Positions 1,809 through 28,190 of a DNA stretch of 35,857 bases are shown in pieces. Each line of letters starts with the position of its first letter. The first letter of the stretch is position 1. The stretch comes from an uncultured Ruminococcus sp. Lineage in GTDB: Bacteria; Bacillota; Clostridia; Monoglobales; Monoglobaceae. Both the position numbers and the translations under genes were made by a program. Location of the stretch: assembly GCA_902777435.1 (NCBI GenBank), contig CACYTW010000004.1, forward strand, positions 1 to 35,857, in the 5' to 3' direction. The notes under the pieces were generated by a model. The model was not told the origin of the DNA. It made no database searches and saw only the letters and a program-made list of their open reading frames with translations.

Positions 1809-1861
1809 GAAGATGTTTATTTTTGGGGCATTGTGCCCAAAAATCGGCATCTTCTTTTTTT
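1809..1861 (+). promoter_or_regulatory. Leader hairpin with U-tract (candidate attenuator)
   Basis: GAAGATG (1809-1815) pairs with CATCTTC (1848-1854), and inside it ATTTTTGGG (1819-1827) pairs with CCCAAAAAT (1836-1844). Seven T residues follow (1855-1861). This is an intrinsic terminator placed between the promoter and the first gene. Readthrough must be controlled or partial. The ANTAR protein encoded in the same operon is a plausible antiterminator, but the paired AxxGxx hexaloops expected of a classical ANTAR target are not evident. Confidence 0.7.
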
Positions 1862-1890
1862 ATTGTAAAATTTTGAAAGGCGGATGTTTT

Positions 1891-8089: not shown

Positions 8090-8110
8090 ATTTTGGGGAG
8101 GAAACAATCA

Positions 8111-10815: not shown

Positions 10816-11067
10816 ATGAAAAATATGAAGATAACCATATGTATCGGAAGTTCTTGTCATATAAAGGGTTCTCGCGTTGTTGTTGAGAGAATTCAGGAAC
10901 TTGTAGAGGAGAACAACCTGGGAGATAAAGTTACTATCAAGGGTGCGTTTTGTATGGGAAAATGTGTTGAGGGTGTATGTGTAACCATAAACGAAAAACA
11001 TTATTCCGTTAACAAGGACGAAGTTGATGAATTCTTTGAAAAAGAAGTTTTAGCAAACATAGAGTGA
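10816..11067 (+). CDS. Thioredoxin-like [2Fe-2S] ferredoxin (first of tandem pair)
   Basis: This 83-residue protein matches the NuoE-like thioredoxin-fold ferredoxins. Cysteines in CIGSSCH near the N-terminus and FCMGKC in the middle give the four-ligand pattern for a [2Fe-2S] cluster. Such small proteins accompany electron-bifurcating or sensory [FeFe]-hydrogenase genes and pass electrons between partners. AGAAAGG precedes the ATG. It is the first gene of the operon and a tandem paralogue of the next one. Confidence 0.82.
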   Translation: MKNMKITICIGSSCHIKGSRVVVERIQELVEENNLGDKVTIKGAFCMGKCVEGVCVTINEKHYSVNKDEVDEFFEKEVLANIE

Positions 11068-11125
11068 GTGTGCGTAAAAAAGCATTAATTACATTAATAG
11101 TTATTTAATACTCAGGAGGGGAAAA

Positions 11126-11380
11126 ATGCTTATTGTGCAAGTGTGTGTCGGGAGTTCCTGCCATTTAAAAGGGTCGCAGGAAATTGTGGAAAAAATGCAA
11201 GCGGCGGTAGAAAAGTATAAGCTTGATGATCAGGTTGTACTGTCGGGCAGCTTCTGTATCGGAAAGTGCAGCCGCGGAGGCGTTACAATACAGGTGAATG
11301 ACGAAGTTTATACAGGCGTATCACCTGATAGTTTTGATGAGTTTTTTAAGGAACATATTTTAGATGTGGTTAATTCCTAA
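11126..11380 (+). CDS. Thioredoxin-like [2Fe-2S] ferredoxin (second of tandem pair)
   Basis: The 84-residue protein repeats the layout of its neighbour: CVGSSCHLKGS at the N-terminus, FCIGKC in the middle and a DEFF segment towards the end. It has diverged strongly outside the cluster site, suggesting different partners. AGGAGGGG lies at ideal spacing. It is followed after 18 bases by the PAS-hydrogenase homologue, with which it probably exchanges electrons. Confidence 0.82.
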   Translation: MLIVQVCVGSSCHLKGSQEIVEKMQAAVEKYKLDDQVVLSGSFCIGKCSRGGVTIQVNDEVYTGVSPDSFDEFFKEHILDVVNS

Positions 11381-11398
11381 AATAAGGGAGAGTTGCAT

Positions 11399-13075: not shown

Positions 13076-14240
13076 TTTATGCGCAGAGATAGGTTACAGG
13101 AGCATAAACCATTACGGTGAGGAGCTTTGCGGTGACCACATAGATGTAGTAAACAACAATGATAACTCGCTGATAATTGTTTTGGCAGACGGACTTGGCA
13201 GTGGAGTTAAGGCAAGCATCTTATCTACATTGACCTCAAAGATAATATCTACACTAATGGCGGCAGATTTGTCCGTTGAAGAATGTGTGTCAACAGTTGC
13301 GGCAACATTGCCTGTTTGCTCGGTCAGAGGGGTTGCGTACTCTACATTTACTATTATTCACATAGTTGACAATGAATATGCAGAGATAATCCAATATGAT
13401 AACCCACAGGTTATTATGCTGAGAGATGGTGTGAATTATGACTATCCAAAGGATGAATATATAATAGAAGATAAAAAAATTTATCGTTCAAAAATCAGAC
13501 TTCAGGAGAATGATGTATTTGTTGCAATGAGTGACGGCTGCCCTCACGCAGGGATAGGTCTTGCATACAACTTTGGTTGGAAAATTGATGAAATAATTGA
13601 TTTTGTTGAAACAGTAGAGTGTGCAGGCTACAACGCCAAAACACTTGCGACAATCCTGATTGATGAAGTAAACAAGTTATACGGCAACAAACCCGGGGAT
13701 GATGCTACGGCTTGTGTGGTTAAGATAAGAAAACGCAATCCGATGAATATCCTCTTTGGACCGCCGTCTAATCCTGATGATTGCAACAAAATGATGTCGC
13801 TTTTCTTTGCAAAGGAAGGCAAGCATATCGTCTGCGGCGGAACCACCTCGTCCATAGCCGCAAAATTCCTCGGCAAAGAGGTAAAGCCAACACTTAAATT
13901 TGAGTCGAAGGAAATTCCTCCGATTGCTGAAATCGAAGGTGTTGACTTGGTAACAGAGGGTGTAATCACCGTAAACAAGGTTTTGGAATATGCGGAAGAT
14001 TTTATCTCCGAAAATAAGCTATACGAAATATGGGAGTTTGGTCGTGATGGAGCATCCTTGATATCGAGAATGCTTTTTGAGGAGTCAACCGACATAAACT
14101 TTTATGTAGGGCGTGCAATAAATCCTGCACATCAAAATCCTGATTTGCCTATTAACTTTAATATAAAAATGAATTTGGTAAAAGGACTTTCCGAATGTTT
14201 GACAAAAATGGGAAAGCGCATAAAGGTAAGTTATTTTTAA
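13068..14240 (+). CDS. hfsC: SpoIIE-family PP2C phosphatase (HfsC type)
   Basis: This 390-residue protein has a PP2C-like phosphatase domain in its first 220 residues, with the metal-binding acidic motifs LADGLGSG, AMSDGCPHAG and GDDATACVV. The remaining 170 residues form a second domain without a motif I recognise. It overlaps the sensory hydrogenase by eight bases, and the same gene pairing occurs in the Hfs cluster of Thermoanaerobacterium saccharolyticum. It likely converts the hydrogenase signal into dephosphorylation of an unknown serine/threonine phosphoprotein. TAAGGAG sits before the ATG at 13068. Confidence 0.83.
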   Translation: MNDLCAEIGYRSINHYGEELCGDHIDVVNNNDNSLIIVLADGLGSGVKASILSTLTSKIISTLMAADLSVEECVSTVAATLPVCSVRGVAYSTFTIIHIVDNEYAEIIQYDNPQVIMLRDGVNYDYPKDEYIIEDKKIYRSKIRLQENDVFVAMSDGCPHAGIGLAYNFGWKIDEIIDFVETVECAGYNAKTLATILIDEVNKLYGNKPGDDATACVVKIRKRNPMNILFGPPSNPDDCNKMMSLFFAKEGKHIVCGGTTSSIAAKFLGKEVKPTLKFESKEIPPIAEIEGVDLVTEGVITVNKVLEYAEDFISENKLYEIWEFGRDGASLISRMLFEESTDINFYVGRAINPAHQNPDLPINFNIKMNLVKGLSECLTKMGKRIKVSYF

Positions 14241-14281
14241 GTTTAATCTGAATTGTGTCATTGACGAGAGGAGCAGCTATA

Positions 14282-15727
14282 ATGAAGATAAGAAAGTTTG
14301 ATACAAAAGTGCAGCATCTGAAGTACAAAGTATTGCGTGAGGTTGCAAGACACGCCTGGGCAGGGGACCTTTTGGAAAAGGTTACTGACATTCCCGAAAT
14401 AATAGTTCCCGGCAATACGGCAACAATGAGATGCTGTGTATATAAGGAAAGAGCTATTCTTTCAAAGAGAGTAAAGCTTGCAATGGGCGGCGATACAGAA
14501 AACAAAAATGTGATTGAGGTAATAAGCATAGCCTGTGACGAATGTCCAATGGGCGGTTACGAGGTTACAAACGCTTGCCGCGGATGCTTGGCACACAGAT
14601 GTGAAGACGTGTGTAAGTTTGGAGCATTAACCTTTGACGAACAGCAGAAAGCACACATTGATAAGTCAAAGTGCAAAGAGTGCGGTGCTTGTTCCAAGGT
14701 TTGTCCGTACAGTGCGATTACACATCATAAGCGTCCTTGTCAGAGTGCTTGTAAAATCAAGGCGATTTCTATGGACGAGAACAAGGCGGCTAAGATTGAC
14801 GATGAAAAGTGCATTTCCTGCGGTGCTTGTGTTTACCAATGTCCCTTTGGTGCAATCTCGGATAAGTCTTATATCTTAGATGCAATAGACATAATCAAAA
14901 ACAGCGAGAACAATACAAAATACAAGGTTTATGCGGTAGTTGCTCCGTCTATTTCCAGCCAGTTTACATATGCGAAGCTTGGACAGGTAGTAACGGGAAT
15001 TAAGAAACTCGGTGCATACACAACGGTTGAGGCGGCACTCGGTGCAGATATGGTTGCAATGGAGGAATCGAAAGAGCTTGTGGAAAAGGGCTTCCTTACC
15101 AGCTCGTGCTGTCCCGGGTTTGTAAGATATGTTGAGAAGAACTTTCCCGATATGAAGGAAAACATTTCACACAATTTGTCGCCTATGGCAAGAATTGCAA
15201 AATATATCAAGGAGACAGACGAGAGTGCAAAGATAATCTTTATCGGTCCGTGTACTGCAAAAAAAGCGGAGATACAGCTGGACAAGGTAAAGCCTTATGT
15301 TGATGTGGTTCTTACATTTGAAGAATTGCAGGCATTGTTTGACAGCCGTGATATAGATATCACAACTCTTGAAGAGGGAGTGCTTGACAATGCGTCATAT
15401 TATGGAAGAATTTTTGCCCGTTGTGGAGGACTGTCCGATGCGGTGGTTGAGGCACTTAAGGAACAAAATATTGATGATTTTGAGGTTAAGGGTATTTCCT
15501 GTGACGGAATTGAGGAATGTAAGATTGCTCTCATTAAAAAGAACAAAAATCTTATAGACGTAAACTTTATCGAGGGTATGGCTTGTAACGGCGGATGTAT
15601 CGGCGGTGCAGGGTGCTTAACCCACGGTGCAAAGGATAAAAGTGAAGTTGACAAATATGGAATGCAGGCATACGAAAAGACAATTAAGGGTGCCGTTGGC
15701 GTTTTTAAATCAAATGAAAATAAATAA
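14282..15727 (+). CDS. hfsD: [FeFe]-hydrogenase, group B-like (HfsD type)
   Basis: This 481-residue protein carries several [4Fe-4S] motifs in its N-terminal third (among them CKECGACSKVCP, then CISCGACVYQCP) and an H-cluster domain. L1 is SSCCPGF near residue 273, L2 is GPCTAKKAE near 321, L3 is MACNGGCIGGAG near 432; all four cysteines of the H-cluster are present. SCCPG in place of SCSPG fits group B. It should reduce protons with ferredoxin or oxidise H2 in the cytosol, and is the likely catalytic partner of the sensory pair upstream. GAGAGGAG precedes the ATG at 14282; a more upstream start is possible but lacks a site. Confidence 0.88.
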   Translation: MKIRKFDTKVQHLKYKVLREVARHAWAGDLLEKVTDIPEIIVPGNTATMRCCVYKERAILSKRVKLAMGGDTENKNVIEVISIACDECPMGGYEVTNACRGCLAHRCEDVCKFGALTFDEQQKAHIDKSKCKECGACSKVCPYSAITHHKRPCQSACKIKAISMDENKAAKIDDEKCISCGACVYQCPFGAISDKSYILDAIDIIKNSENNTKYKVYAVVAPSISSQFTYAKLGQVVTGIKKLGAYTTVEAALGADMVAMEESKELVEKGFLTSSCCPGFVRYVEKNFPDMKENISHNLSPMARIAKYIKETDESAKIIFIGPCTAKKAEIQLDKVKPYVDVVLTFEELQALFDSRDIDITTLEEGVLDNASYYGRIFARCGGLSDAVVEALKEQNIDDFEVKGISCDGIEECKIALIKKNKNLIDVNFIEGMACNGGCIGGAGCLTHGAKDKSEVDKYGMQAYEKTIKGAVGVFKSNENK

Positions 15728-15748: not shown

Positions 15749-16693
15749 ATGAATAAAATTACTATTATCGGAAGCGGAAGCGTTGGTTCAACCATCGCCT
15801 ACACATTGACGGTTAACGGCATTTGCTCGGAAATCGTTATGATTGACATTAACAACGAAAAGGCTCTCGGCGAGGCTCTTGATATCAGACAGGGTATCCC
15901 CTTCTGTAATCCTTGCAGCGTATATGCAGGCTCATATGAAGATGCTGAAAATTCAGATATCGTAATTATTACATCAGGCATACCAAGAAAAGCAGGTCAG
16001 ACAAGACTTGAGCTTGCTCAGACAAACATTGATGTGTTAAAGGGCATTATACCTGAGATTACACATTATGCACCTGATGCGGTTTACCTTCTTGTAAGTA
16101 ACCCTGTTGATATTTTAACCTATGCATTCTGTAAGTGCTCAGGTATTCCTGAAGAGCGCATTATCGGTTCAGGTACAATTCTTGATACCGCAAGATTGCG
16201 TTCGCGTCTTTCCGAATATTACAAGATAAGCCAGAACAATGTTCACGCTTATGTATTGGGTGAGCACGGTGACTCGTCATTTATCCCTTGGTCCCTTGCA
16301 AATATTTCAAATGTACACATTGACGACTGTCCTAAATCATTCTCAACAGGAGCTACTATTCTTCCTGAACTTGACAGAGAAGAAATCCTTGAGCACGTTC
16401 GTAAGTCAGGGGGCAGAGTTATTGAACGTAAGGGTGCAACATTCTATGCGGTTTCAATTTCAGTATGCCATATCTGTAAGTGTCTGCTCAGCGGTATTGA
16501 CACAACTATGACAATTTCCACAATGATGCACGGCGAGTACGGAATTGATGACGTTTGTTTAAGTACACTCAGTGTTGTAGGTAATAAGGGTATCCGCAGT
16601 AAGGTTATGCTTCCGCTTAATGATGATGAGATATTGAAGCTTCGTAACAGTGCAGACAAGCTTAAGGAAATCATAAACGCCACTGTAATCTAA
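15749..16693 (+). CDS. Lactate/malate dehydrogenase family, probably malate dehydrogenase
   Basis: This 314-residue NAD-dependent 2-hydroxyacid dehydrogenase has the Rossmann motif GSGSVGS at the N-terminus, the substrate-site SNPVDILTY, the catalytic HGDS His and the LDTARLR segment. At the specificity position on the mobile loop (IPRKAGQTR) it has Arg80, the residue typical of malate dehydrogenases; lactate dehydrogenases usually have Gln. With fumarase directly downstream, reduction of oxaloacetate to malate is the best guess. Automatic annotation may still call it L-lactate dehydrogenase. AAGGAGAGG precedes the start; it is 21 bases after the hydrogenase. Confidence 0.82.
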   Translation: MNKITIIGSGSVGSTIAYTLTVNGICSEIVMIDINNEKALGEALDIRQGIPFCNPCSVYAGSYEDAENSDIVIITSGIPRKAGQTRLELAQTNIDVLKGIIPEITHYAPDAVYLLVSNPVDILTYAFCKCSGIPEERIIGSGTILDTARLRSRLSEYYKISQNNVHAYVLGEHGDSSFIPWSLANISNVHIDDCPKSFSTGATILPELDREEILEHVRKSGGRVIERKGATFYAVSISVCHICKCLLSGIDTTMTISTMMHGEYGIDDVCLSTLSVVGNKGIRSKVMLPLNDDEILKLRNSADKLKEIINATVI

Positions 16694-16724: not shown

Positions 16725-18101
16725 ATGGATTATCGTATTGAACACGACTCAATGGGTGAAGTCAAGGTGCCTGCTGACAAGCTATGGGCGGCTCAAACCC
16801 AGAGAAGTCACGAGAATTTTGAAATCGGTGTTAATATTGAAACAATGCCAAGAGAGATTACTCACGCATTTGGTATCTTAAAGAAGGCTGCCGCACAGGC
16901 AAACAGCGAACTTCGTCCCGAAAAAATGACAGCGGCAAAACTTGAGGCTATAAGCGGTGCCTGTGATGAGGTTATCTCAGGCAAGCTCAATGATAATTTC
17001 CCTCTCGTTGTATGGCAGACAGGTTCGGGTACACAATCCAATATGAATGCCAATGAGGTTATTGCCAACAGAGGAAATGAAATCGCAGGCGATAAAATTC
17101 TTCATCCCAATGATGATGTAAATATGAGTCAGTCATCAAATGATACATTCCCGACAGCTATGCACATTGCGGCAGTTTTGATGCTCGAGGATAAGCTCAT
17201 TCCTGCGGCTCAGACTCTTATTGAAACATTCAAAGGTCTTGAAAAGGAAAACGAAGGCATAGTAAAGAGCGGCAGAACTCACCTTCAGGATGCAACTCCT
17301 ATCACATTTTCTCAGGAAATAAGCGGTTGGCGTTCAAGTCTTGAAAAAGACGTTGCACTCTTAAAGATGGCGGTTAAGCCTCTCTACGAGTTGGCTCTCG
17401 GCGGAACAGCGGTAGGTACAGGCCTTAATGCTCCTGCAGGCTTTGGTGAGCTTGTTGCAGAAAAGGTTTCGGGTCTTACAGGCAAGCCCTTTGTTACTGC
17501 GGCAAACAAGTTCCACGCTCTTACATCAAAGGACGAGTTGGTATTCGCTCACGGTGCCATTAAGGCTCTTGCAGCTGATATGATGAAGATTGCAAACGAC
17601 GTTCGTTGGCTTGCAAGCGGTCCGAGAGACGGCCTTGGCGAAATCTTTATTCCTGAGAACGAGCCGGGTTCTTCAATTATGCCGGGTAAGGTAAACCCGA
17701 CACAATGTGAGGCTGTTTCTATGGTTGCTGTTCAGGTTATGGGTAATGATGTTGCGGTTTCTATGGCGGCATCACAGGGTAACTTTGAACTTAACGTATT
17801 TATGCCTGTTTGTATCTACAATTTCTTGCAGTCGGCAAGACTTTTGGCTGAGGCAATTCTCTCATTTAACAAAAACTGTGCCGTAGGTATCAAGGCTAAC
17901 AAGGAAAAGATGCATCACAACCTTCACAACTCGCTTATGCTCGTTACTGCTCTTAACCCTTATATCGGTTACGAGAATGCAGCAAAGACAGCAAAGAAGG
18001 CATTTAAAGATAACATTTCATTAAAGGAAGCCTGTGTAGAATTAGGTTTTCTCACAGCTGAAAAATTTGACGAAGTATTCCATCCGGAGCAGATGGTATA
18101 A
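16725..18101 (+). CDS. fumC: Class II fumarase
   Basis: This 458-residue protein, close to the usual length, interconverts malate and fumarate without an iron-sulfur cluster. It shows TGSGTQSNMNANEVIANR near residue 102, SSNDTFPTAMH, the TGRTHLQDATP-like segment (SGRTHLQDATPIT) and the superfamily signature GSSIMPGKVNP near residue 316, whose Ser is the catalytic base. AAGGAGG precedes it. Lying between the dehydrogenase and Hdr/Frd genes, it supplies fumarate in the reductive direction. Confidence 0.95.
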   Translation: MDYRIEHDSMGEVKVPADKLWAAQTQRSHENFEIGVNIETMPREITHAFGILKKAAAQANSELRPEKMTAAKLEAISGACDEVISGKLNDNFPLVVWQTGSGTQSNMNANEVIANRGNEIAGDKILHPNDDVNMSQSSNDTFPTAMHIAAVLMLEDKLIPAAQTLIETFKGLEKENEGIVKSGRTHLQDATPITFSQEISGWRSSLEKDVALLKMAVKPLYELALGGTAVGTGLNAPAGFGELVAEKVSGLTGKPFVTAANKFHALTSKDELVFAHGAIKALAADMMKIANDVRWLASGPRDGLGEIFIPENEPGSSIMPGKVNPTQCEAVSMVAVQVMGNDVAVSMAASQGNFELNVFMPVCIYNFLQSARLLAEAILSFNKNCAVGIKANKEKMHHNLHNSLMLVTALNPYIGYENAAKTAKKAFKDNISLKEACVELGFLTAEKFDEVFHPEQMV

Positions 18102-18119: not shown

Positions 18120-18899
18120 ATGAAGGTATCATACTTTCCGGGCTGTACCTTAAAGACAAAAGCTAAACAGCTTGACAAATATACAAGAAAAAGCGCAGAG
18201 GTTCTTGATATTACCTTAGAGGAAATCGAAAATTGGCAATGTTGCGGCGGTGTGTTTACAACTGCCCGTGACGAGATAGCTACAAAGCTGTCATCTGTCA
18301 GAGCCTTGTCAGAGGCCGCAAAGAAAGACCAAATTCTTGTTTCTGTTTGCTCTGCTTGTCACAATGTAATAAAGCAGACAAACAATGCAATGCAGACAGA
18401 TGATGAATTTAATTTCCGCGTAAACCAATATATTGATGAAGAATATAATGGTGAAGCTAAGGTTATGCATTTTTTGGAGCTCCTGCGTGATGAGGTTGGC
18501 TTTGATAAGGTGGCCGAAAAGGTTAAAAAGTCATTAGAGGGTAAAAAGGTTGCCGCATATTACGGTTGCTTGCTTCTCAGACCAAGCAGCGTTATGCAGA
18601 TGGACGATCCCGAAAACCCAACTATTATCGAAGATTTGATTTCCGCCCTTGGCGGAGAGCCTGTGGTTTATCCGTACAGAAACGAATGTTGCGGCGGATA
18701 TATCGCGTTGGAAAACCCTGAGTCTGCAAAGGCAAGAAGCAACAAGGTAACCGAGAGTGCTGTAAAGAGCGGTGCTGAGATAATTGTTACGGCTTGTCCC
18801 CTTTGTAAGTATAATTTAGAGAAGAACGGCAGTGAAATTCCTGTTGTCTACTTTACTGAACTGCTTGCAGAGGCGCTCGGTGTAAAGGAGGAGAACTAA
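18120..18899 (+). CDS. hdrB: Heterodisulfide reductase subunit B homologue (two CCG domains)
   Basis: The 259-residue protein has two complete CCG domains: Cys9, Cys41-Cys42, Cys77, Cys80, and Cys150, Cys190-Cys191, Cys226, Cys229. In HdrB these bind two non-cubane [4Fe-4S] clusters that reduce a disulfide. It should form a complex with HdrC and HdrA encoded next. In Desulfovibrio FlxABCD-HdrABC the partner is DsrC; no dsrC-like gene is present here, but FrdAB-like genes are, so its acceptor may be the fumarate reductase. AGGAGG precedes the ATG, and its stop abuts the next start. Confidence 0.93.
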   Translation: MKVSYFPGCTLKTKAKQLDKYTRKSAEVLDITLEEIENWQCCGGVFTTARDEIATKLSSVRALSEAAKKDQILVSVCSACHNVIKQTNNAMQTDDEFNFRVNQYIDEEYNGEAKVMHFLELLRDEVGFDKVAEKVKKSLEGKKVAAYYGCLLLRPSSVMQMDDPENPTIIEDLISALGGEPVVYPYRNECCGGYIALENPESAKARSNKVTESAVKSGAEIIVTACPLCKYNLEKNGSEIPVVYFTELLAEALGVKEEN

Positions 18900-19292
18900 A
18901 TGAATAACAGTACTGAAAATCTCCAAAAAGAAATTATCCGCTCCAGCGGAGTAAACCCAAAGAAGTGTATGCGTTGCGGTAAATGTTCTGCAACTTGTCC
19001 TGCATATGACGAGATGGAATATCATCCGCATCAGTTTGTGTATATGGTGGAAAACGGTGATATTCAGCCGCTTTTGGAGTCTAAATCCCTGTTTCAATGT
19101 CTTACGTGCTTTGCTTGCATAGAGAGATGTCCAAGGGGTGTAGAGCCTGCAAAGCTGGTTGAAGCTGTACGTCTTGCGGTTATCCGCAAGCAAGGTGCAA
19201 ATCACTTAAAAGCAGACGATATTCCTGCTCTGCTTGACGAGGATATGCCACAGCAAGCAATAGTCAGCGCACTTAGAAAATACAGTAAGTAA
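18900..19292 (+). CDS. hdrC: Heterodisulfide reductase subunit C homologue
   Basis: This 130-residue ferredoxin-like protein has two [4Fe-4S] motifs, CMRCGKCSATCP near residue 22 and CLTCFACIERCP near residue 65, spaced as in soluble HdrC. It conducts electrons from HdrA to HdrB. GGAGGAG is embedded in the end of hdrB, with the start immediately after the hdrB stop. No membrane segment is seen, so the complex is the cytosolic HdrABC type and not HdrDE. Confidence 0.92.
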   Translation: MNNSTENLQKEIIRSSGVNPKKCMRCGKCSATCPAYDEMEYHPHQFVYMVENGDIQPLLESKSLFQCLTCFACIERCPRGVEPAKLVEAVRLAVIRKQGANHLKADDIPALLDEDMPQQAIVSALRKYSK

Positions 19293-19308: not shown

Positions 19309-21303
19309 ATGCAAAGAATAGGCGTATTCGTGTGTTGGTGCGGTAGTAATATCGCCGGCACTGTGGATGTACAGGCAGTATCAGATGCTCTGCAAAATGA
19401 GCCGGGTGTTGTCTTTTCCACGAATTATCAATATATGTGTTCTCAGGCAGGACAGGATATTATAAAAAATGCCATAGCTGAGCATAAGCTCACAGGTATT
19501 GTTGTATGTTCTTGTTCACCGAGAATGCACGAGGCAACCTTCCGTAAGACTGCGGCAGCCGCAGGTCTTAATCCATATATGGTTGAGATTGCAAACATAC
19601 GTGAACAATGTTCTTGGGTACACAAAGATATGCCCACGGGAACAGAGAAGGCTATCATTTTAGGTAAGGCGGCAGTTGCAAAGGTTAACCTTAATGCTCC
19701 CCTTAAACCCGGTGAGAGCCCTGTTACCAAGAGAGCTCTTGTTATCGGCGGCGGTATCGCAGGTATTCAGACAGCTCTTGACATAGCAGAGGCAGGCTTC
19801 CCCGTTGATATAGTTGAAAAGAAGCCCACAATCGGCGGTAAGATGGCTCAGCTTGATAAGACCTTCCCGACACTTGACTGTGCGGCTTGTATCCTCACAC
19901 CTAAGATGGTGGATGTGGCACAGAATGAAAACATCCGCATTTTCTCTTACAGTGAGGTAGAAGAGGTTGGCGGCTTTGTCGGCAACTTTGATGTTAAAAT
20001 CAGAAAGAAGGCTCGTTTTGTAAACGAGGATATTTGTACAGGCTGTGGAATTTGTACAGAAAAATGTCCGCAAAAAAAGGTTCCCAATGAGTTCAACCTG
20101 GGTATGGACAACAGACGTGCAATCTACATTCCGTTTGCACAGGCTGTTCCTAAAGTTGCAACAATAGATGCAGACTATTGCACAATGTTAAAGACAGGCA
20201 AGTGCGGTGTTTGCTCAAAGGTTTGTACTGCAGGTGCTATTGATTATACTCAGAAGGACGAAATTATAGAAGAAAAATACGGTGCAATCGTTGCGGCAAC
20301 AGGCTTTAATCCCATTAGTATGGACAAGTTTGACGAGTATGCGTACAATCAGTCAAAGGACGTTATCACCTCTCTTGAGTTTGAGCGTTTGACAAATGCC
20401 GCAGGCCCGTCTGCAGGTAAGCTTGTTCGTCCCTCTGACGGCAAACACCCGCACACAATCGTGTTTGTGCAGTGTGTAGGCTCCCGTTGTGCGGCTTGTG
20501 CCGAAAAGGGTAAGGAGTATTGTTCAAAGATTTGTTGTATGTACACTGCAAAGCACGCAATGCTCACAAGAGATAAGTATCCCGATACCGATGTTTATGT
20601 ATTCTACATAGACGTAAGAACTCCCGGTAAGGCATTTGATGAATTCTATCGCCGTGCCGTTGAGGAATATGGTGTTCACTACATCAAGGGTATGGTAGGT
20701 AAGGTTTCACCTGAGGGTGACAAGCTGATGGTTCAGGCATCTGACCTCCTTGCAAACAAGCAGTTGCATATCGAGGCAGATTTGGTTGTATTAGCCGCCG
20801 CTATCGAGCCTGACAAGTCTGCAAGACCCCTTGCAACTCAGCTTACAGCAAGTATGGATACCAACGACTTCTTTACGGAAGCACATCCTAAGCTCCGCCC
20901 CGTAGAAAGCCCCACAGCAGGTGTATTCTTATCAGGTACTTGTCAAGGACCTAAGGATATTCCTGAAACAGTTTCTCAGGCAAGCGCGGCTGCTGCAAAG
21001 GTTATCGGCTTGCTGGCAAAGGATAAGCTTACAGGTAACCCTTGTGTCGCAGCTTCAGATGAGCTTATGTGTAACGTCTGTTCCTCCTGCGAGAGAGTTT
21101 GTCCTTACGGTGCTATCACTTATGTTGACAAAGAATTCCGTATGCCTGACAGAACAACAAGGGTAAGACGTGTGGCTTCTGTCAATGAGGCTGTATGTCA
21201 GGGTTGCGGTGCTTGTACAGTTGCGTGTCCGTCAGGTGCTATGGACCTTAAGGGTTTTGCAACAAAACAGATTATTGCGGAGGTGGATGCTATATGCAGA
21301 TAA
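19309..21303 (+). CDS. hdrA: Heterodisulfide reductase subunit A homologue (FAD, bifurcating core)
   Basis: The 664-residue flavoprotein begins with the HdrA N-terminal domain (CWCGSN; CSCSPRMHEATF). The FAD-binding motif VIGGGIAGIQTA is at about residue 145, the HdrA-specific cysteine insert LDCAACILTPKM at about 190, [4Fe-4S] motifs CTGCGICTEKCP at about 243 and CGVCSKVC at about 299, and a C-terminal di-cluster domain (CNVCSSCERVCP near 588 and CQGCGACTVACP near 630). HdrA holds the flavin where electrons are split between a high-potential branch through HdrC/B and low-potential ferredoxin. AAGGAGG precedes the start. It overlaps the MvhD-like gene by ten bases. Confidence 0.94.
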   Translation: MQRIGVFVCWCGSNIAGTVDVQAVSDALQNEPGVVFSTNYQYMCSQAGQDIIKNAIAEHKLTGIVVCSCSPRMHEATFRKTAAAAGLNPYMVEIANIREQCSWVHKDMPTGTEKAIILGKAAVAKVNLNAPLKPGESPVTKRALVIGGGIAGIQTALDIAEAGFPVDIVEKKPTIGGKMAQLDKTFPTLDCAACILTPKMVDVAQNENIRIFSYSEVEEVGGFVGNFDVKIRKKARFVNEDICTGCGICTEKCPQKKVPNEFNLGMDNRRAIYIPFAQAVPKVATIDADYCTMLKTGKCGVCSKVCTAGAIDYTQKDEIIEEKYGAIVAATGFNPISMDKFDEYAYNQSKDVITSLEFERLTNAAGPSAGKLVRPSDGKHPHTIVFVQCVGSRCAACAEKGKEYCSKICCMYTAKHAMLTRDKYPDTDVYVFYIDVRTPGKAFDEFYRRAVEEYGVHYIKGMVGKVSPEGDKLMVQASDLLANKQLHIEADLVVLAAAIEPDKSARPLATQLTASMDTNDFFTEAHPKLRPVESPTAGVFLSGTCQGPKDIPETVSQASAAAAKVIGLLAKDKLTGNPCVAASDELMCNVCSSCERVCPYGAITYVDKEFRMPDRTTRVRRVASVNEAVCQGCGACTVACPSGAMDLKGFATKQIIAEVDAICR

Positions 21304-21731
21304 ATGGCGAATTTCAACCTAAAATAGTGGCTTTTTGCTGTAACTGGTGTTCATACGCAGGTGCAGACCTTGCAGGTAATAACAGATTGGCTTATCCTGA
21401 AAATGTTAAGATTATTAAGGTTCCCTGCTCGTGCCGTGTAAACCCTATGTTTATACTCCGCGCGTTTCAACGCGGTGCTGATGGAGTAATCCTTTGCGGA
21501 TGCCATCCCGGTGACTGTCACTATACATCAGGAAATTATTATACAAGAAGAAGAATGGCGTTGCTGTTCTCTATGCTGAACTACCTCGGAATTGAAAAAG
21601 AGCGTACCCGTGTTGAATGGGTATCTGCCGCCGAGGGTGCAAAGTTTGCACAGACAATGAACGAGTTTACCGAGGCTGTTGCGGCTCTCGGCGAAAATAA
21701 GAGATTGGAGGATTTGAGATGCAAAAAGTAA
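21294..21731 (+). CDS. flxD: MvhD/FlxD-type hydrogenase iron-sulfur subunit
   Basis: This 145-residue protein matches the MvhD family: FCCNWCSYAGADLAG at the N-terminus, VPCSCRVNP, then GCHPGDCHY. The conserved cysteines bind a [2Fe-2S] cluster that delivers electrons to HdrA. In methanogens the donor is the Mvh hydrogenase; in bacterial Flx-Hdr complexes it is the FlxABC NADH-oxidising part, which follows directly here. It overlaps hdrA and the next gene, so stoichiometric coupled translation is likely. Confidence 0.9.
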   Translation: MQINGEFQPKIVAFCCNWCSYAGADLAGNNRLAYPENVKIIKVPCSCRVNPMFILRAFQRGADGVILCGCHPGDCHYTSGNYYTRRRMALLFSMLNYLGIEKERTRVEWVSAAEGAKFAQTMNEFTEAVAALGENKRLEDLRCKK

Positions 21732-22717
21732 CTTGTGATACACTTGTAGCTAAGGCTTGCGAATTGCTTGAAAACGGCACTGTTGACCGTGTGCTTGGCT
21801 GGAAAAACGGCGAGTTTGTATACGACGTAACGCCTGCTCTCTTTACAACAGTTGACGATATCAAATCCGAGTTTGTTTTCAATGACTTTTGCGGTGCAAA
21901 CTTCTCTAAATATTTGATAGAAGAAACACGTAAAACAGAAAGCAAAGTGCTTGTATTCTTAAAACCTTGCGATACATACAGCTTTAATCAGCTTTTAACC
22001 GAACACCGCTTTGACAGAGAAAAGGTGTATGCATTAGGTATTCCTTGCGAGGGTATGGCTGATATAACAAAGGTAAAGGCTGCCGCAGGTGATGGTATCA
22101 CCGCAATCAAAGCAGAAGGCGAAAATCTTGTTATTTCAACTCTGTATGATGAGGATAAAACTGTGGCCTGTGCTGATATGCTTGCTGAAAGATGTATGGT
22201 ATGTAAGAGTAAAAAGCACGTTGCATATGACGAGCTTTTGGGTGAAGATGGTGACGTTATCGACTCAAATCGTTTTGATGAGGTAGAAAAGTTGGAGGCT
22301 ATGACAGAGGACGAGAGATTTGCATTCTGGCAGAATGAATTATCACGCTGTATCAGATGTAATGCTTGCCGTGACGTATGTCCTGCTTGTACCTGTGAAA
22401 AGTGTGTGTTTGATAACCCTGAGTCAAGTGTGGCTAACAAGGCGATTTCGGACAGCTTTGAAGAAAAGATGTTCCACATTATCCGCGCCTTCCACGTGGC
22501 AGGACGTTGTACCGACTGCGGTGAATGTTCAAGAGTTTGTCCTCAGAATATTCCCCTTCATCTACTCAACAGAAAGTTTATAAAAGATATTAACAGCTTC
22601 TATGGTGAATATCAGGCAGGGGCAGAGGCAGGCAGCCGTGCTCCCCTTGTAGACTACACCACGGAGGACATTGAGCCTACCGATGCTGTTCTGAAAGGAG
22701 CGTCAGATAATGCGTAA
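21719..22717 (+). CDS. flxC: FlxC-like iron-sulfur protein
   Basis: The 332-residue protein has an N-terminal region resembling the F420-dehydrogenase/sulfite reductase A type alpha-beta domain (KVLVFLKPCDTYS) and three cysteine clusters: CMVCKSKKH near residue 160, CIRCNACRDVCP with CTCEKC near 212-230, and CTDCGECSRVCP near 264. It should carry two [4Fe-4S] clusters and possibly more. Gene order flxD-flxC-flxB-flxA is the mirror of the order described in Desulfovibrio, which is why I assign C. TTGGAGGA precedes the ATG; it overlaps both neighbours. Confidence 0.65.
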   Translation: MQKVTCDTLVAKACELLENGTVDRVLGWKNGEFVYDVTPALFTTVDDIKSEFVFNDFCGANFSKYLIEETRKTESKVLVFLKPCDTYSFNQLLTEHRFDREKVYALGIPCEGMADITKVKAAAGDGITAIKAEGENLVISTLYDEDKTVACADMLAERCMVCKSKKHVAYDELLGEDGDVIDSNRFDEVEKLEAMTEDERFAFWQNELSRCIRCNACRDVCPACTCEKCVFDNPESSVANKAISDSFEEKMFHIIRAFHVAGRCTDCGECSRVCPQNIPLHLLNRKFIKDINSFYGEYQAGAEAGSRAPLVDYTTEDIEPTDAVLKGASDNA

Positions 22718-23735
22718 ATGTTCAATTCAGAATTTAGATGCTGTGTTCTCTAAAATTGCGGAGGAGGCTAAACTCTATATTCCGCAGGATAGCGAAAAGG
22801 GTACAGATTATAAGGAGTGGACAGAGGGTGCAGTATTAAGCAACGCCCTCAATACCAACAGAAGCCCTAAGGACTTCTTCTTCCCTCAGACCGAAAATCT
22901 TATGGAATTTAAGACAAGCGGCAAGGAAATCGAGATAATCGATAACAGGGACGAAATGGAAGACTTCGTTGTATTCGGCGTTCGTGCCTGTGATGTAAAG
23001 AGCTTTGAGATACTTGACAGAGTATTCTTGGTTGAGCCTTACGACAGCTATTATGCCAACAGACGTGAGCACGGTGTTATAATTTCAATGGCTTGCACCA
23101 GACCTGTTGAAACCTGCTTCTGTCAGACTTTTGACATAGATGCGGCAAATCCTGAGGGTGATATTGTTTGTCACAAGACAGAGAATGACGTTTTCTTTAA
23201 TGCAGTAACCGAAAAGGGTAATGCTCTTATGGCAAAGCTCGAAGGTGTAACCGAGGACGCAGACAGCAGTGAAGTTGATGCACAGATAGAGAAAACTCAC
23301 GAGATTATGAAGAAACTTCCTCTTGCTAATCTAACAGCCGATAAGTTCGGTGCAGACAAGACAAATGAGTTCTTTGATGCACCACAGTGGAAGGAGCTTT
23401 CACAGTCGTGCTTAGGCTGCGGTACTTGCACATTTGTATGCCCGACTTGTCAATGCTATGACATAAAAGACTACAACACAGGTCACGGAGTTATTCGTTT
23501 CCGTTGTTGGGACTCTTGTATGTATTCAGACTTTACAAAGATGGCTCACGGCAACTCCAGAAACTCTCAGCTTGAGCGTTTCCGTCAGAGATTTATGCAC
23601 AAACTTGTGTACTATCCTACAAACAATGACGGCTTGTTCAGTTGTGTAGGCTGTGGCAGATGTCTGGCTAAATGCCCGATTTCTATGAATATTGTAAAGG
23701 TTATGAAGACGTTAGGAGGTAAAGATAATGAATAA
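22710..23735 (+). CDS. flxB: FlxB-like iron-sulfur protein (anaerobic sulfite reductase A-like)
   Basis: This 341-residue protein resembles AsrA and sulfhydrogenase beta subunits. Features are GVRACDVKSFEILDRVF near residue 90, a CTRPVETCFC cysteine group near 128-138, and two [4Fe-4S] motifs, CLGCGTCTFVCPTCQC near 235 and CVGCGRCLAKCP near 312. It is a paralogue in layout of the preceding gene. Adjacent AsrB-like FlxA makes an electron-input pair: NADH to FAD (FlxA) to the Fe-S clusters here. AAAGGAG precedes the start; it overlaps flxA by eight bases. Confidence 0.7.
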   Translation: MRKCSIQNLDAVFSKIAEEAKLYIPQDSEKGTDYKEWTEGAVLSNALNTNRSPKDFFFPQTENLMEFKTSGKEIEIIDNRDEMEDFVVFGVRACDVKSFEILDRVFLVEPYDSYYANRREHGVIISMACTRPVETCFCQTFDIDAANPEGDIVCHKTENDVFFNAVTEKGNALMAKLEGVTEDADSSEVDAQIEKTHEIMKKLPLANLTADKFGADKTNEFFDAPQWKELSQSCLGCGTCTFVCPTCQCYDIKDYNTGHGVIRFRCWDSCMYSDFTKMAHGNSRNSQLERFRQRFMHKLVYYPTNNDGLFSCVGCGRCLAKCPISMNIVKVMKTLGGKDNE

Positions 23736-24561
23736 TCGTGAGGAAACTTTAATTCCAAAAATTGGTGTGATTACTGATGTTCGTATCGATACACCTGATG
23801 TAAAGACCTTCCGTGTGGTAACTCCCGACGGTAAAAAGGCTTTTGAGCATAGACCCGGTCAGTGTGCAATGCTCTCTATCCCAGGTGTGGGAGAGGCAAT
23901 GTTTTCTATAACATCTTCGCCGACCAACACCGAGTTTATGGAATTTTCGATTAAAAAGTGCGGCTGTGTAACCGAGTGGCTCCATCAGGCTGAGGTAGGA
24001 CAGCAAATTACCATAAGAGGTCCGTACGGAAACCCTTTCCCTGTGGATGATGCGTTTCAAGGACAGGATTTGCTCTTTATTGCCGGCGGTATCGGCCTTG
24101 CACCTCTGCGTTCGGTAATCAATTACTGCAGACATTACAGAGAAAATTATGGCAAGATTGATATTGTATATGGTTCAAGGAGTAAGGACGACCTTGTAGA
24201 TTATGACGAGATTATCAATGAATGGGTAAAGGATGACGGTATTGACGTTCATCTTACCATTGATAACGAGCAGGAAGGATGGGACGGTCACGTTGGCTTT
24301 GTTCCTAACTATGTTAAAGAGCTTGGTTTTGATACCAACAAGACAGTTATTATTTGCGGACCGCCGATTATGATTAAGTTCACACTCCAAGGACTTATTG
24401 AGATGGGTTATGATAAAACTCAGGTTTATACAACTATGGAGCTTCGTATGAAGTGCGGCATAGGCAAGTGCGGCAGATGTAATATCGGGTCAAAGTATGT
24501 TTGCAAAGACGGCCCTGTATTCCGCTGTGACGAGCTTGAAGAACTGCAGGATGAGTATTAA
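23728..24561 (+). CDS. flxA: FlxA-like FAD/NAD(P)-binding oxidoreductase
   Basis: The 277-residue protein has the ferredoxin-NADP reductase fold with a C-terminal cysteine cluster, as in PyrK, AsrB and sulfhydrogenase gamma. RPGQCAMLSI followed by FSITSSP near residues 40-58 binds FAD, and IAGGIGLAPLRS near residue 118 begins the nicotinamide nucleotide domain. CGIGKCGRC with a later Cys near 243-258 binds a [2Fe-2S] cluster. It is the expected NADH entry point to the Hdr complex. AGGAGG precedes the ATG. Confidence 0.83.
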   Translation: MNNREETLIPKIGVITDVRIDTPDVKTFRVVTPDGKKAFEHRPGQCAMLSIPGVGEAMFSITSSPTNTEFMEFSIKKCGCVTEWLHQAEVGQQITIRGPYGNPFPVDDAFQGQDLLFIAGGIGLAPLRSVINYCRHYRENYGKIDIVYGSRSKDDLVDYDEIINEWVKDDGIDVHLTIDNEQEGWDGHVGFVPNYVKELGFDTNKTVIICGPPIMIKFTLQGLIEMGYDKTQVYTTMELRMKCGIGKCGRCNIGSKYVCKDGPVFRCDELEELQDEY

Positions 24562-24577: not shown

Positions 24578-25252
24578 ATGGAAAATATGGTAAATATATT
24601 TCTGTTCGGAAAAAAATATGAAGTTCCGGACAATCTTACAATAATGAGTGCAATGGAATATGCCGGTTATCAGTTGGTTCGCGGTTGCGGATGCCGTAAC
24701 GGCTTCTGTGGTGCTTGTGCTACAATTTACAGAATTAAAGGTCAGACTGAGCTTAAGGCTTGTCTTGCTTGTCAGACTAAGGTTGAGGACAATATGTATA
24801 TCGCAACATTGCCCTTCTTTCCATTGGTTAAGCAGACTTATGATATCGAAAAGATTGCTCCCACAGAGCAGATTATGATGCAGCTCTACCCTGAGATTTA
24901 CGCTTGTATCGGCTGTAACGCTTGTACAAAGAGCTGTACTCAGGAGCTTAATGTTATGCAGTATATCGCATATGCTCAAAGAGGCGAATACGAAAAGTGT
25001 GCTGAGGAGTCATTTGACTGTGTAATGTGCGGAGTATGTTCTTCACGTTGTCCTGCAGGAATTTCACATCCTCAGGTTGCAATGCTCGCAAGACGTCTTA
25101 ACGGTAAGTATCTGGCACCTAAGTCCGCTCACCTTGAAAATCGTGTTCAGGAAATTAAGGACGGCACATTTACTGAACTTATAGAGGGTCTTATGCAAAA
25201 GCCCATAGACGAAATCAAAGAACTTTATAACAACAGAGAAATAGAGAAATAA
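24578..25252 (+). CDS. FrdB-like soluble iron-sulfur subunit
   Basis: This 224-residue protein begins with a plant-type [2Fe-2S] domain (CGCRNGFCGAC near residue 34, then ACLACQ), like SdhB/FrdB/TfrB. It continues with two [4Fe-4S] motifs, CIGCNACTKSC near 108 and CVMCGVCSSRCP near 148. Classical SdhB has one [4Fe-4S] and one [3Fe-4S] cluster, so the second full motif is unusual. It lacks the HdrB-like C-terminal half of archaeal TfrB; hdrB is a separate gene in the same operon. The ATG at 24578 is chosen for AAGGAGGA upstream; longer in-frame starts overlap flxA. Confidence 0.78.
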   Translation: MENMVNIFLFGKKYEVPDNLTIMSAMEYAGYQLVRGCGCRNGFCGACATIYRIKGQTELKACLACQTKVEDNMYIATLPFFPLVKQTYDIEKIAPTEQIMMQLYPEIYACIGCNACTKSCTQELNVMQYIAYAQRGEYEKCAEESFDCVMCGVCSSRCPAGISHPQVAMLARRLNGKYLAPKSAHLENRVQEIKDGTFTELIEGLMQKPIDEIKELYNNREIEK

Positions 25253-25266
25253 GGAGGTGTTTTCTA

Positions 25267-26862
25267 ATGTATGCAGATAGATTTACTGAATCAATAAAGG
25301 CGGTTGAAGCCGCAAGAGAAGAAAATATTAAGCTTGAGCCAAGACGTATGACTGCACAGGAAAAAGAGGACTTACTTAAGGCTTATCACCCTGACTATAA
25401 GGTAGACGAGTTTGAGGAATTGAAAATTGGTCCAAATAAGGGTGAGAAGGTTCCCAAAGAGCTTGCGGCTATACTTCAGGCACACAGCCGTATAAAGTCA
25501 GATGCGGTTGATTTGAATAAAGTCGACTATGACGTTGATGTTTTGGTTATCGGCGGCGGCGGTGCAGGCTCGTCTGCGGCAATCGAAGCAAACGAGGCAG
25601 GTGCAAATGTAATGATAGTTACAAAGCTCCGTATCGGTGACGCAAACACAATGATGGCAGAAGGTGGTATTCAGGCGGCAGACAAAGAAAACGACTCTCC
25701 TGCAATTCACTTTGTAGATGCTTTTGGCGGCGGTCACTATGCCGCAAAGCGTGAACTTTTGTCAAAGCTCGTATGTGACGCACCCGAGGCTATTCAGTGG
25801 CTTAACGAACTTGGCGTTGAGTTCGACAAGGACGAGGACGGCAGAATGATTACAACTCACGGCGGCGGTACATCACGTAAGCGTATGCACGCAGCTAAGG
25901 ACTATTCCGGTGCAGAGATTATGAGAACTCTCCGTGATGAAGTTATAAACCGTGGTATCCCCGTGGTTGACTTTACTTCTGCAATTGAACTCATCCTCGA
26001 TGAAAACGGAAACGCCGCAGGTGCAGTTCTTATGAATATGGAAACAAAGGAATTGCTGGTGGCTAAGGCTAAGACTGTTATTATCGCAACAGGCGGTGCA
26101 GGCCGTATGCACTATCAGGGCTTCCCTACATCTAACCACTATGGTGCAACAGCAGACGGACTTGTACTTGGCTATCGTGCAGGGGCTAAGCTCTTATATG
26201 CGGATACACTTCAGTATCATCCGACCGGTGTTGCATATCCTGAACAGATTTTTGGCGCGTTGGTTACAGAGAAGGTTCGTTCACTTGGTGCAAAGCTCAT
26301 CAACGCTAATGGTGAAGCATTTATGCATCCCCTTGAAACAAGAGACGTTTCAGCCGCATCTATCATTCGTGAATGTTCAGACAGAGGCAATGGCGTAGAT
26401 ACAGGCAACGGCCTTGGCGTATGGCTCGATACTCCTATGATTGAAAAAATCGGCGGTGAAGGTACTATTGAGGCAAGAATTCCTGCTATGATGCGTATGT
26501 TTGCTAAATACGGAATTGATATCCGCAAGGAACCGATTTTGGTTTATCCGACACTTCACTATCAAAACGGCGGCCTTGATATTAATGCGGATTGTATGAC
26601 AACAGAGATTGAAAACCTCTTTGTTGCAGGTGAAGCCGTAGGCGGAATTCACGGAAGAAACAGACTTATGGGTAACTCACTTCTTGACATTATCGTATTC
26701 GGCCGCAGTGCAGGTAAGAATGCTGCTGCTAAGTGCAAGGATGTTAAGGTTGGCACACTGTCGCTTAAGCATATTGATAACTTTGAGGCTGAAATTTCAG
26801 CAGCAGAAATTGATACTGATGTAGTTTCACCTAAGTTATTGCCTGATTACACAAGAAAATAA
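25267..26862 (+). CDS. FrdA-like flavoprotein, probable soluble fumarate reductase catalytic subunit
   Basis: The 531-residue protein belongs to the succinate dehydrogenase/fumarate reductase flavoprotein family. FAD motif VIGGGGAGSSAA is at about residue 94, substrate-domain HPTG at 318, TEKVR with Arg338 near the usual catalytic Arg, His431 in HYQNGG, and GRNRLMGNSLLD near 463. Three oddities: an 85-residue N-terminal extension before the FAD domain; Asn127 in ANTMMAEGG where His normally carries the flavin covalently; and loss of the usual C-terminal helical domain. L-aspartate oxidase is an alternative, but the FrdB-like neighbour and fumarase argue for fumarate reduction. No membrane anchor gene is present, so the enzyme is cytosolic. 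Confidence 0.8.
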   Translation: MYADRFTESIKAVEAAREENIKLEPRRMTAQEKEDLLKAYHPDYKVDEFEELKIGPNKGEKVPKELAAILQAHSRIKSDAVDLNKVDYDVDVLVIGGGGAGSSAAIEANEAGANVMIVTKLRIGDANTMMAEGGIQAADKENDSPAIHFVDAFGGGHYAAKRELLSKLVCDAPEAIQWLNELGVEFDKDEDGRMITTHGGGTSRKRMHAAKDYSGAEIMRTLRDEVINRGIPVVDFTSAIELILDENGNAAGAVLMNMETKELLVAKAKTVIIATGGAGRMHYQGFPTSNHYGATADGLVLGYRAGAKLLYADTLQYHPTGVAYPEQIFGALVTEKVRSLGAKLINANGEAFMHPLETRDVSAASIIRECSDRGNGVDTGNGLGVWLDTPMIEKIGGEGTIEARIPAMMRMFAKYGIDIRKEPILVYPTLHYQNGGLDINADCMTTEIENLFVAGEAVGGIHGRNRLMGNSLLDIIVFGRSAGKNAAAKCKDVKVGTLSLKHIDNFEAEISAAEIDTDVVSPKLLPDYTRK

Positions 26863-26933: not shown

Positions 26934-28190
26934 ATGAGTTTATTTGGCGGAGTTATTCCAATAACGGGAATTACATTTTTAATGTTCTGCTTATTTGCAA
27001 TTTTGTTTGTTGGCTACGCTCTGGGACGTATAACCATAAAGGGAGTGTCCCTGGGTGACGCAGGTGTATTTATTATTGCCCTGCTTTTTGGATGTTTCTT
27101 TTATAAGCCCCTTGAAGCACAGCTTGCTATTAAATTCGGAGGAGAAATGGTGCACTACACAGATAAGGCACTGAAGATTATCGAAAACTTTGGTCTTATC
27201 TTGTTTGTTACCTCTGTTGGCTTTATTGCAGGTCCGAACTTCTTTGGCAATATGAAAAAGAACTTTAAGTCATATGTGCTTATCGGTCTTATGATAATAT
27301 TGTTCGGCGGGCTTGCGGCAGTTGGCTGTATCTACTTAGGCTTTGCATTGGGCGAGCCAAAGGACGGCAGCTTTGTAGCTATGATAGTTGGCTTGCTTTC
27401 AGGTTCACTTACATCAACTCCTGCTTTCTCGGCAGCTAAGGCAACCGTAAACCCTGAGTTTGAGAGCCTTGTATCAGTAGGTCACGGTATCGCATACATA
27501 TTTGGCGTAATCGGTGTTGTACTGTTCGTTCAGCTTATTCCTAAAATTACAAAGGCTGATATGGATGCAGAGAGAGCAAAAATTACTGTATCAAAGGAAC
27601 AATCAACAAAGAAAGTAGCTAACGTAAAACTTTTAAGTCTTGATGAGCACGGCTTTGCGGCATTTGCACTTGCGGCAGTTGTTGGTATGGTTGTCGGAAT
27701 GATTAAAATTCCCCTTTCATCAAATGGACTTAGCGGTACAACCTTTGCTTTGACTACAACAGGCGGATGTCTTTTGACATCACTTGTATTCGGTCACTTT
27801 GGCAGAATAGGCAAGCTGAACATTATGCCTGATACTTCAACACTTAAACTGTTCCGTGAGCTTGGTCTTGTACTCTTTTTGGTAGGTGCAGGTATCCCGG
27901 GCGGTGCAGAATTTGTAGCACACTTTGACCCAATGTACTTTGTATATGGTGTAATTATGACTATAGTACCTATGTTTGTTGGCTATCTGTTTGCAAAGCA
28001 TATTTTAAAGCTTCCGTTGTTGAACAGCCTTGGCTCAATCACGGGCGGTATGACATCTACCCCTGCTCTTGGTACACTTATCAATGTTGCAAAGACAGAG
28101 GAAGTTGCATCAGCGTATGCGGCTACATATCCTATTGCACTTATCGCAGTAGTTCTTGTGTCTCAGTTCCTTATTCTCTTTTTGGGATAG
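26934..28190 (+). CDS. AspT/YidE-family (AAE) dicarboxylate carrier, possible succinate exporter
   Basis: The 418-residue membrane protein has about ten hydrophobic segments in two halves, each with the duplicated AAE-family motif: SGSLTSTPAFSAA near residue 157 and GGMTSTPALGTL near 371. The family includes the aspartate:alanine exchanger AspT and the succinate exporter SucE of Corynebacterium glutamicum. The central soluble region is only about 40 residues, so the RCK_C (TrkA_C) domains of full-length AspT are missing. Being last in an operon that should make succinate, export of succinate or dicarboxylate exchange is the best inference. AAAGAGG precedes the ATG. Confidence 0.82.
   Translation: MSLFGGVIPITGITFLMFCLFAILFVGYALGRITIKGVSLGDAGVFIIALLFGCFFYKPLEAQLAIKFGGEMVHYTDKALKIIENFGLILFVTSVGFIAGPNFFGNMKKNFKSYVLIGLMIILFGGLAAVGCIYLGFALGEPKDGSFVAMIVGLLSGSLTSTPAFSAAKATVNPEFESLVSVGHGIAYIFGVIGVVLFVQLIPKITKADMDAERAKITVSKEQSTKKVANVKLLSLDEHGFAAFALAAVVGMVVGMIKIPLSSNGLSGTTFALTTTGGCLLTSLVFGHFGRIGKLNIMPDTSTLKLFRELGLVLFLVGAGIPGGAEFVAHFDPMYFVYGVIMTIVPMFVGYLFAKHILKLPLLNSLGSITGGMTSTPALGTLINVAKTEEVASAYAATYPIALIAVVLVSQFLILFLG

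Follow-up and report, generated by a model that had tools for sequence, protein, structure and literature searches.

A predicted soluble fumarate reductase with an N-terminal extension in a Flx-Hdr gene neighbourhood

A 531-aa FrdA-like flavoprotein (FrdA) is encoded in the window, which is the whole 35,857-nucleotide stretch of DNA analysed here. We consider it likely that FrdA is the catalytic flavoprotein of a soluble fumarate reductase, that it is fed by the protein FrdB with a bifurcating Flx-HdrABC complex as the most probable donor, and that its N-terminal extension is a signature of the protein family. There is as yet no settled account of how gut Clostridia poor in cytochromes turn fumarate into succinate, or of whether this step yields energy. 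An operon of this type has already been proposed for Pseudoclostridium thermosuccinogenes. What is new here is the breadth of its distribution, the placement of the extension-bearing FrdB-FrdA pairs in a distinct clade with apparently exchangeable donors, and an Arg-type dehydrogenase that probably corrects an L-LDH label. The succinate operon is found in about 1/7 of the sampled genomes of the class. Ruminococcus flavefaciens, a succinate producer of the rumen, and Blautia also carry it.

Anatomy of the FrdA-like protein

The open reading frame (25267-26862, on the + strand, as are all operon genes described below) starts with an ATG that is preceded by a strong Shine-Dalgarno sequence, GGAGGTG. 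Pfam FAD_binding_2 covers residues 91-472 (E 2e-70), and the GGGGAG FAD motif begins at residue 96, about as late as the earlier note on this DNA had placed it (near residue 94). The HGRNRL motif (residues 462-467) is followed by only 64 residues up to the C-terminal end, compared with 153, 188, and 210 residues in E. coli NadB, SdhA, and FrdA, respectively. With this tail the C-terminal helical domain is missing, as had been noted for a tail of about 70 residues. The AlphaFold model of FrdA (AF2; 45 homologues, pLDDT 81.8, pTM 0.87) has E. coli FrdA (1kf6) as its best match among solved structures. This fold and six dicarboxylate-site positions that are kept bear out the original description of the protein as FrdA-like.

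The six positions, common to SdhA, FrdA, and NadB, are H318, T320, T334, R359, H431, and R466, which match His232, Thr234, Thr244, Arg287, His355, and Arg390 of E. coli FrdA (numbering without Met). They are kept in 38/38 aligned family members, with Ser in place of T334 in four proteins linked to NuoF-like genes. In most lineages the neighbouring genes make or use fumarate: fumarase (FumC) and malate dehydrogenase in the window, class I fumarase in others, and aspartase on an Ilyobacter plasmid. Because the active site is kept and fumarase, aspartase, malate dehydrogenase, or malic enzyme genes adjoin in most lineages, we infer that the reaction is fumarate reduction.

Asn127 (codon AAC, 25645-25647) aligns with the covalent-FAD His of E. 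coli FrdA and SdhA (His45 in FrdA, numbering with Met). The replacement of this His by Asn, which the earlier note had pointed out, is found in 38/38 family members. With Asn at the covalent-FAD position, FAD of FrdA is very probably bound non-covalently, as had been suggested. Asn is also found at this position in several Bacillota NadB-like reference proteins. Judged from the alignment, the missing flavin-linking His is an ordinary feature and, since these NadB-like proteins share the Asn, no sign of Hdr pairing.

The operon and the proposed electron path

FrdA is the second-last gene of a tightly packed operon with the order MDH-FumC-HdrB-HdrC-HdrA-FlxD-FlxC-FlxB-FlxA-FrdB-FrdA-transporter and gaps of -13 to 71 bp. 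The first gene (15749-16693) encodes a predicted malate dehydrogenase (MDH) of the LDH family. L-LDH models match it above cut-off, but it has Arg80 at the substrate-specificity position, as do 54/54 operon-linked orthologues. Arg is the classical malate-dehydrogenase residue at this position, and the automatic L-LDH label is probably wrong. Because of this MDH-type Arg, a complete route from oxaloacetate through malate and fumarate to succinate would be encoded in one operon. Fumarate would be supplied by FumC (16725-18101), a class II fumarase (TIGR00979, 710 bits; cut-off 665).

The next seven genes encode the predicted donor complex. HdrB (18120-18899) matches solved HdrB structures and has two complete CCG motifs (two matches to CX30-40CCX33-38CX2C); it scores 152 bits with the HdrB model and 141 bits with the SdhE model. 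HdrC (18900-19292) has two [4Fe-4S] motifs, found by profile matches and by motif scan. HdrA (19309-21303), the candidate site of flavin bifurcation, matches HdrA of structure 5odc in full length (682 bits over 660 residues), and its Cys-rich YCSKICCM aligns to YCSNVCCM. HdrABC thus has the features of the bifurcating type in all three subunits. A FlxD/MvhD-like subunit (21294-21731; Pfam FlpD, 188 bits) would link Flx to HdrA. It is followed by a FlxC-like [4Fe-4S] subunit (21719-22717), assigned by its Fer4 domains and the conserved gene order, and a FlxB-like (AsrA/HydB-like) Fe-S subunit (22710-23735; Fer4_22, sulfhydrogenase beta models). The FlxA-like FAD/NAD(P)-binding subunit (23728-24561) has NAD_binding_1, FAD_binding_6, and DHODB Fe-S domains, matches the sulfhydrogenase gamma structure 9nez with 197 bits, and is the predicted entry point of NADH. 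FrdB (24578-25252; 224 aa) is SdhB-like, with a [2Fe-2S] motif and two CX2CX2CX3C motifs (Pfam Fer2/Fer4); its start is at 24578, after AAGGAGG, and not at 24497. The last gene (26934-28190) encodes an AspT/YidE-type transporter (Pfam Asp-Al_Ex), probably a dicarboxylate/succinate carrier, and a gene of this type lies 3' of FrdA in many relatives.

In the proposed mechanism, NADH would enter at FlxA and its electrons would pass through FlxBC and FlxD to the flavin of HdrA. From there one electron would take the downhill path through HdrC, HdrB, and FrdB to FrdA, while the second would be raised to ferredoxin. The Fe-S clusters of FrdB would feed the non-covalent FAD of FrdA, where fumarate is reduced to succinate. 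The net reaction would be 2 NADH + fumarate + ferredoxin(ox) -> 2 NAD+ + succinate + ferredoxin(red). Reduced ferredoxin would be re-oxidised by Rnf for energy, oxaloacetate from PEPCK would be turned into fumarate by MDH and FumC, and succinate would be exported by the AspT-type carrier. RnfC and a GTP-type PEPCK are found in the window's genome. We infer this path, including direct transfer from HdrB to FrdB, from the known HdrA-MvhD arrangement in solved HdrABC structures and from TfrB and SdhABE, where HdrB-like units naturally go together with SdhB-like ones; profile matches place such pairs in TfrB and the SdhE model. Given the potentials of fumarate/succinate (+33 mV) and NADH (-320 mV; PMC5861303), we estimate that the gap is enough for a second electron pair to be driven to ferredoxin, with about -33 to -49 kJ/mol left. 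Bifurcation by Flx-Hdr is probable by analogy, and Flx-Hdr may also have a further acceptor. We know of no enzyme of the extension-bearing clade that has been purified and shown to bifurcate.

It is also conceivable, though rather unlikely, that Flx-Hdr gives all NADH electrons to FrdB-FrdA in a plain NADH:fumarate reductase, with no ferredoxin reduced. Pelotomaculum thermopropionicum has NADH:fumarate reductase activity in its soluble fraction, which is ascribed to the cytoplasmic SDH2 (PTH_1490-1492; PMC10308238), an enzyme compared here by its description. Family members linked to a NuoF-like gene suggest direct NADH input elsewhere, and the energy balance drawn up for Blautia luti took the enzyme to be a plain NADH-dependent one (PMC12773636). 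However, the full bifurcating architecture of HdrA is conserved and would be unneeded for simple downhill transfer, in which about 350 mV would be wasted. Moreover, succinate formation by P. thermosuccinogenes is suppressed by H2, and the authors of that work took this as a sign of ferredoxin coupling (PMC7282089).

Directly upstream of the operon, the co-directional region 10850-15727 encodes two small thioredoxin-like [2Fe-2S] proteins, a [FeFe]-hydrogenase-like protein with a PAS domain (11393), a SpoIIE-type phosphatase (13062), and a monomeric group B [FeFe] hydrogenase (14279; 566 bits), whose gene ends 21 bp before the MDH gene. The region resembles the hfs clusters described in the literature. 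It adjoins the succinate operon only in some relatives (e.g., L053, L067, L080, and L116). At 1813-8698, glutamate synthase is encoded as separate ORFs (amidotransferase, Fer4 plus synthase, ferredoxin, NAD-dependent reductase, and GXGXG); after them come glutamine synthetase and an ANTAR regulator.

The extension and the donor modules across the family

The extension comprises residues 1-87 (25267-25527) and carries the signature LxxxHPD...GxNxG. It is absent from the SdhA, FrdA, and NadB references and present in every family member aligned. In the AF2 model it has pLDDT of about 81-97 and forms helices at residues 4-22, 30-40, and 64-70 as well as short strands. The earlier note had allowed for a misassigned start. 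This was rejected, since homologues align from residue 1-4 of FrdA, their start codons carry Shine-Dalgarno sequences, and four extension residues (L37, P42, D43, and G55) are invariant in 38/38 family members. The extension is genuine.

FrdA orthologues are found in 40 of the 291 sampled genomes of the class, with 61-100% identity and aligned from residue 1-4; the one exception to full alignment is a gene split over two contigs. No match fell between these 40 and the 1e-60 limit in this sample. Of the 299 genomes sampled across the phylum, 30 encode a protein with the extension, at identities down to 51%. Among the carriers with names are Ruminococcus flavefaciens FD-1, Blautia glucerasea, and [Clostridium] asparagiforme. 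Nineteen of 20 long-flank loci have the identical order HdrBCA-FlxDCBA-FrdB-FrdA, which also holds wherever the contig reaches among the 80 named loci listed. Ilyobacter polytropus has the same nine genes on a plasmid, with aspartase before and an aspartate aminotransferase family gene after them.

FrdB is adjacent to FrdA, immediately upstream, in 120 of the 121 loci listed. Among the listed loci with 9.5 kb upstream, HdrA is present in 85/95 and FlxA plus HdrA in 79/95; these counts, taken from identity-ranked best matches and dependent on contig reach and tblastn with the window proteins, are weighted to close relatives and overestimate the whole family. Other donor genes are found elsewhere. 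Three loci (L168, L174, and L178) carry HdrC-HdrB-HdrA together with additional HdrA-like genes, with FlxA not found; in L036, L171, and L172 HdrBCA lies downstream; and L173 and L175 have HdrC-HdrB only. No Hdr gene was found near FrdA in L176, L177, and L179, where genes for MDH, malic enzyme, fumarase, or 2-oxoglutarate oxidoreductase lie beside it. Aerobic proteobacteria (Cupriavidus metallidurans, Paraburkholderia, Pseudoroseomonas, and Caballeronia; L137-L140, all from plasmid or chromid records) have a NuoF-like gene after FrdB-FrdA, and neither HdrA nor HdrB was found in the vicinity. In 3/4 of them (Cupriavidus, Caballeronia, and Paraburkholderia) C4-dicarboxylate-type transporters, named by sequence reading, lie beside this trio, which is a candidate soluble NADH:fumarate (or other dicarboxylate) reductase. 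The FAD motif is at residue 91-113 in the family proteins with other donor genes, and all keep the extension.

Several loci differ in other ways. In L164 and L169, FrdB-FrdA lies beside a membrane module with FMN-type genes and an HdrC-like transmembrane protein, a possible membrane-linked donor. The most divergent pairs, L161-L163, have no HdrA or HdrB nearby; they have MmgE/PrpD-, isocitrate-dehydrogenase-, or PrpF-like genes and a ferredoxin, and their substrate may be other than fumarate (e.g., a tricarboxylate such as aconitate). L165, an extension-bearing protein without an adjacent FrdB, is the second copy of its genome.

A maximum-likelihood tree was made on the shared core, with the extension excluded. 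A branch supported at 100/100 sets all extension-bearing proteins apart from the rest, and a quick tree agrees. NadB (100/99) and SdhA/FrdA (100/100) form separate groups. A place among the aspartate oxidases, which the earlier note had left open, is thus not seen. Within the family, the Hdr/Flx label changes at least three times, and when the tree is rooted on the other proteins the outermost branches are the NuoF group and L161/L163. Because of this tree, and because Hdr-less branches keep the extension, the extension is, on phylogenetic grounds, a family property older than or independent of the Hdr link.

The earlier note had read the extension and the non-covalent flavin as adaptations that let the protein dock to a soluble Hdr partner. 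All close relatives with enough flanking sequence have Hdr and Flx genes upstream, and to this extent the expected co-occurrence with hdr/flx genes stands; it fails for L161-L163, L137-L140, L176, L177, and L179. The first helix (residues 1-34) is poorly kept in NuoF-linked proteins (10-19% identity), which leaves room for a lineage-specific role of that helix alone. Against docking, the extension and the Asn are kept in members without HdrA or HdrB nearby and in the NuoF-linked proteobacteria, and the constant partner is FrdB. Residues 35-87 of the NuoF group are 33-37% identical to the window protein (50-52% in the core) and keep the four invariant residues. First-helix identity to the window is not higher in the Hdr-bearing L136 (29%) than in the Hdr-less L177 (38%). 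Docking to Hdr is an improbable explanation of the extension.

The extension is better described as a fold-level signature of the FrdA family, which goes with the FrdB partner and the loss of the C-terminal domain. For its function, the donor-swapping pattern points experimenters to FrdB, not Hdr. A tethered FrdB-FrdA AlphaFold model (L056, read through the FrdB TAA) gave pTM 0.65, with FrdB pLDDT mostly 25-58. By gene neighbourhood, FrdB-FrdA is the constant core and the electron-donor module is interchangeable; since family members without Hdr/Flx exist, FrdB-FrdA would be able to use other donors. We lean towards the wider reading that extension-type FrdB-FrdA is a separate, widespread soluble fumarate reductase family, an exchangeable core that conserves energy through ferredoxin and Rnf in gut Clostridia. 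Its donors would be bifurcating Flx-HdrABC in gut Clostridia and Fusobacteria and a NuoF-like NADH dehydrogenase in aerobic proteobacteria; elsewhere they would be HdrABC lacking Flx, HdrBC on its own, or a membrane module of the FMN type.

Comparison with known enzymes and operons

All NadB and SdhA/FrdA models score FrdA below cut-off. The top-scoring NCBIfam model is TfrA (NF004900), with 346 bits against a cut-off of 718; the score is 284.6 bits (cut-off 567) for TIGR01812 (SdhA/FrdA), 273 bits (453) for TIGR00551 (NadB), and 233 bits (1100) for NF042982 (8-methylmenaquinol:fumarate reductase SdhA), and the last identity was rejected on this score.

The rank of TfrA and the two non-cubane cluster motifs in HdrB would fit a thiol/disulfide carrier, in which HdrB would reduce a disulfide and FrdAB would work as a thiol:fumarate reductase like the methanogen TfrAB (NF004900/NF004898). 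TfrAB is also soluble, has an SdhB-like plus HdrB-like electron path, and binds its flavin non-covalently. However, the TfrA score is below cut-off (the comparison used the HMM only, with no methanogen TfrA sequences included), and FrdB, with only Fer2 and Fer4 motifs in its 224 aa, lacks the CCG domain of TfrB; on both grounds a TfrA identity was rejected. The TfrA model has no N-terminal extension and runs about 120 positions past the FrdA match. The donors of TfrAB are the CoM/CoB thiols, which to our knowledge are not expected in Clostridia. A thiol route is very improbable. It is hardly credible that FrdA is NadB or a succinate dehydrogenase of another pathway: although the superfamily is the same and short NadB forms exist (model PRK06175, 433 positions), the scores are below cut-off, NadB Glu121 is replaced by Gly199, the clade is apart from E. 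coli NadB, SdhA, and FrdA, and the neighbouring genes are fumarate-forming, with no quinolinate genes among them.

FrdB-FrdA fed by Flx-Hdr, the reading favoured here, can be compared with several other systems. E. coli FrdABCD and SdhABCD share the flavoprotein fold and the substrate-site residues, but have the covalent-FAD His, the C-terminal domain, and membrane anchors, all absent in the window system; the first two absences and the model score exclude FrdA as a classical complex II flavoprotein. No SdhC anchor was found in the window's genome (83% complete) or in 16 other operon-bearing genomes. SDH2 of P. thermopropionicum is, by its description, likewise a cytoplasmic FrdAB without a membrane subunit; its neighbour is a gene for an FrhB-domain protein, whereas that of the window is Flx-Hdr. 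FlxABCD-HdrABC of Desulfovibrio vulgaris was reportedly described by Ramos et al. in 2015 and linked to ethanol metabolism. It is the same seven-subunit donor module, which in the window adjoins FrdB-FrdA.

Blautia luti has methyl-viologen:fumarate reductase activity and transcribes frdAB (PMC12773636). If B. luti shares the operon, which is seen in Blautia glucerasea, and if bifurcation is true, the gain would be about 0.23 ATP per glucose (an estimate of 0.42 succinate x 2 H+ / 3.6, from the stoichiometries of PMC12773636).

The closest likeness is to the 'succinate operon' of P. thermosuccinogenes, for which Flx-Hdr-driven, ferredoxin-coupled fumarate reduction has been proposed and is biochemically unproven (PMC7282089, citing the preprint of Koendjbiharie and van Kranenburg 2019). 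That operon is up about 4-fold under CO2 limitation (PMC7282089). According to the published description, with its sequences outside the comparison, it has the same arrangement of a fumarase gene, the seven genes of Flx-Hdr, two genes for fumarate reductase, and one for a putative succinate transporter. In the window, by contrast, the LDH-family MDH gene lies directly upstream, with hydrogenase and phosphatase genes before it. With fumarase, HdrABC, FlxABCD, FrdB, FrdA, and a transporter all present, the window locus is, by gene content, a member of this proposed Flx-Hdr-linked fumarate reductase type.
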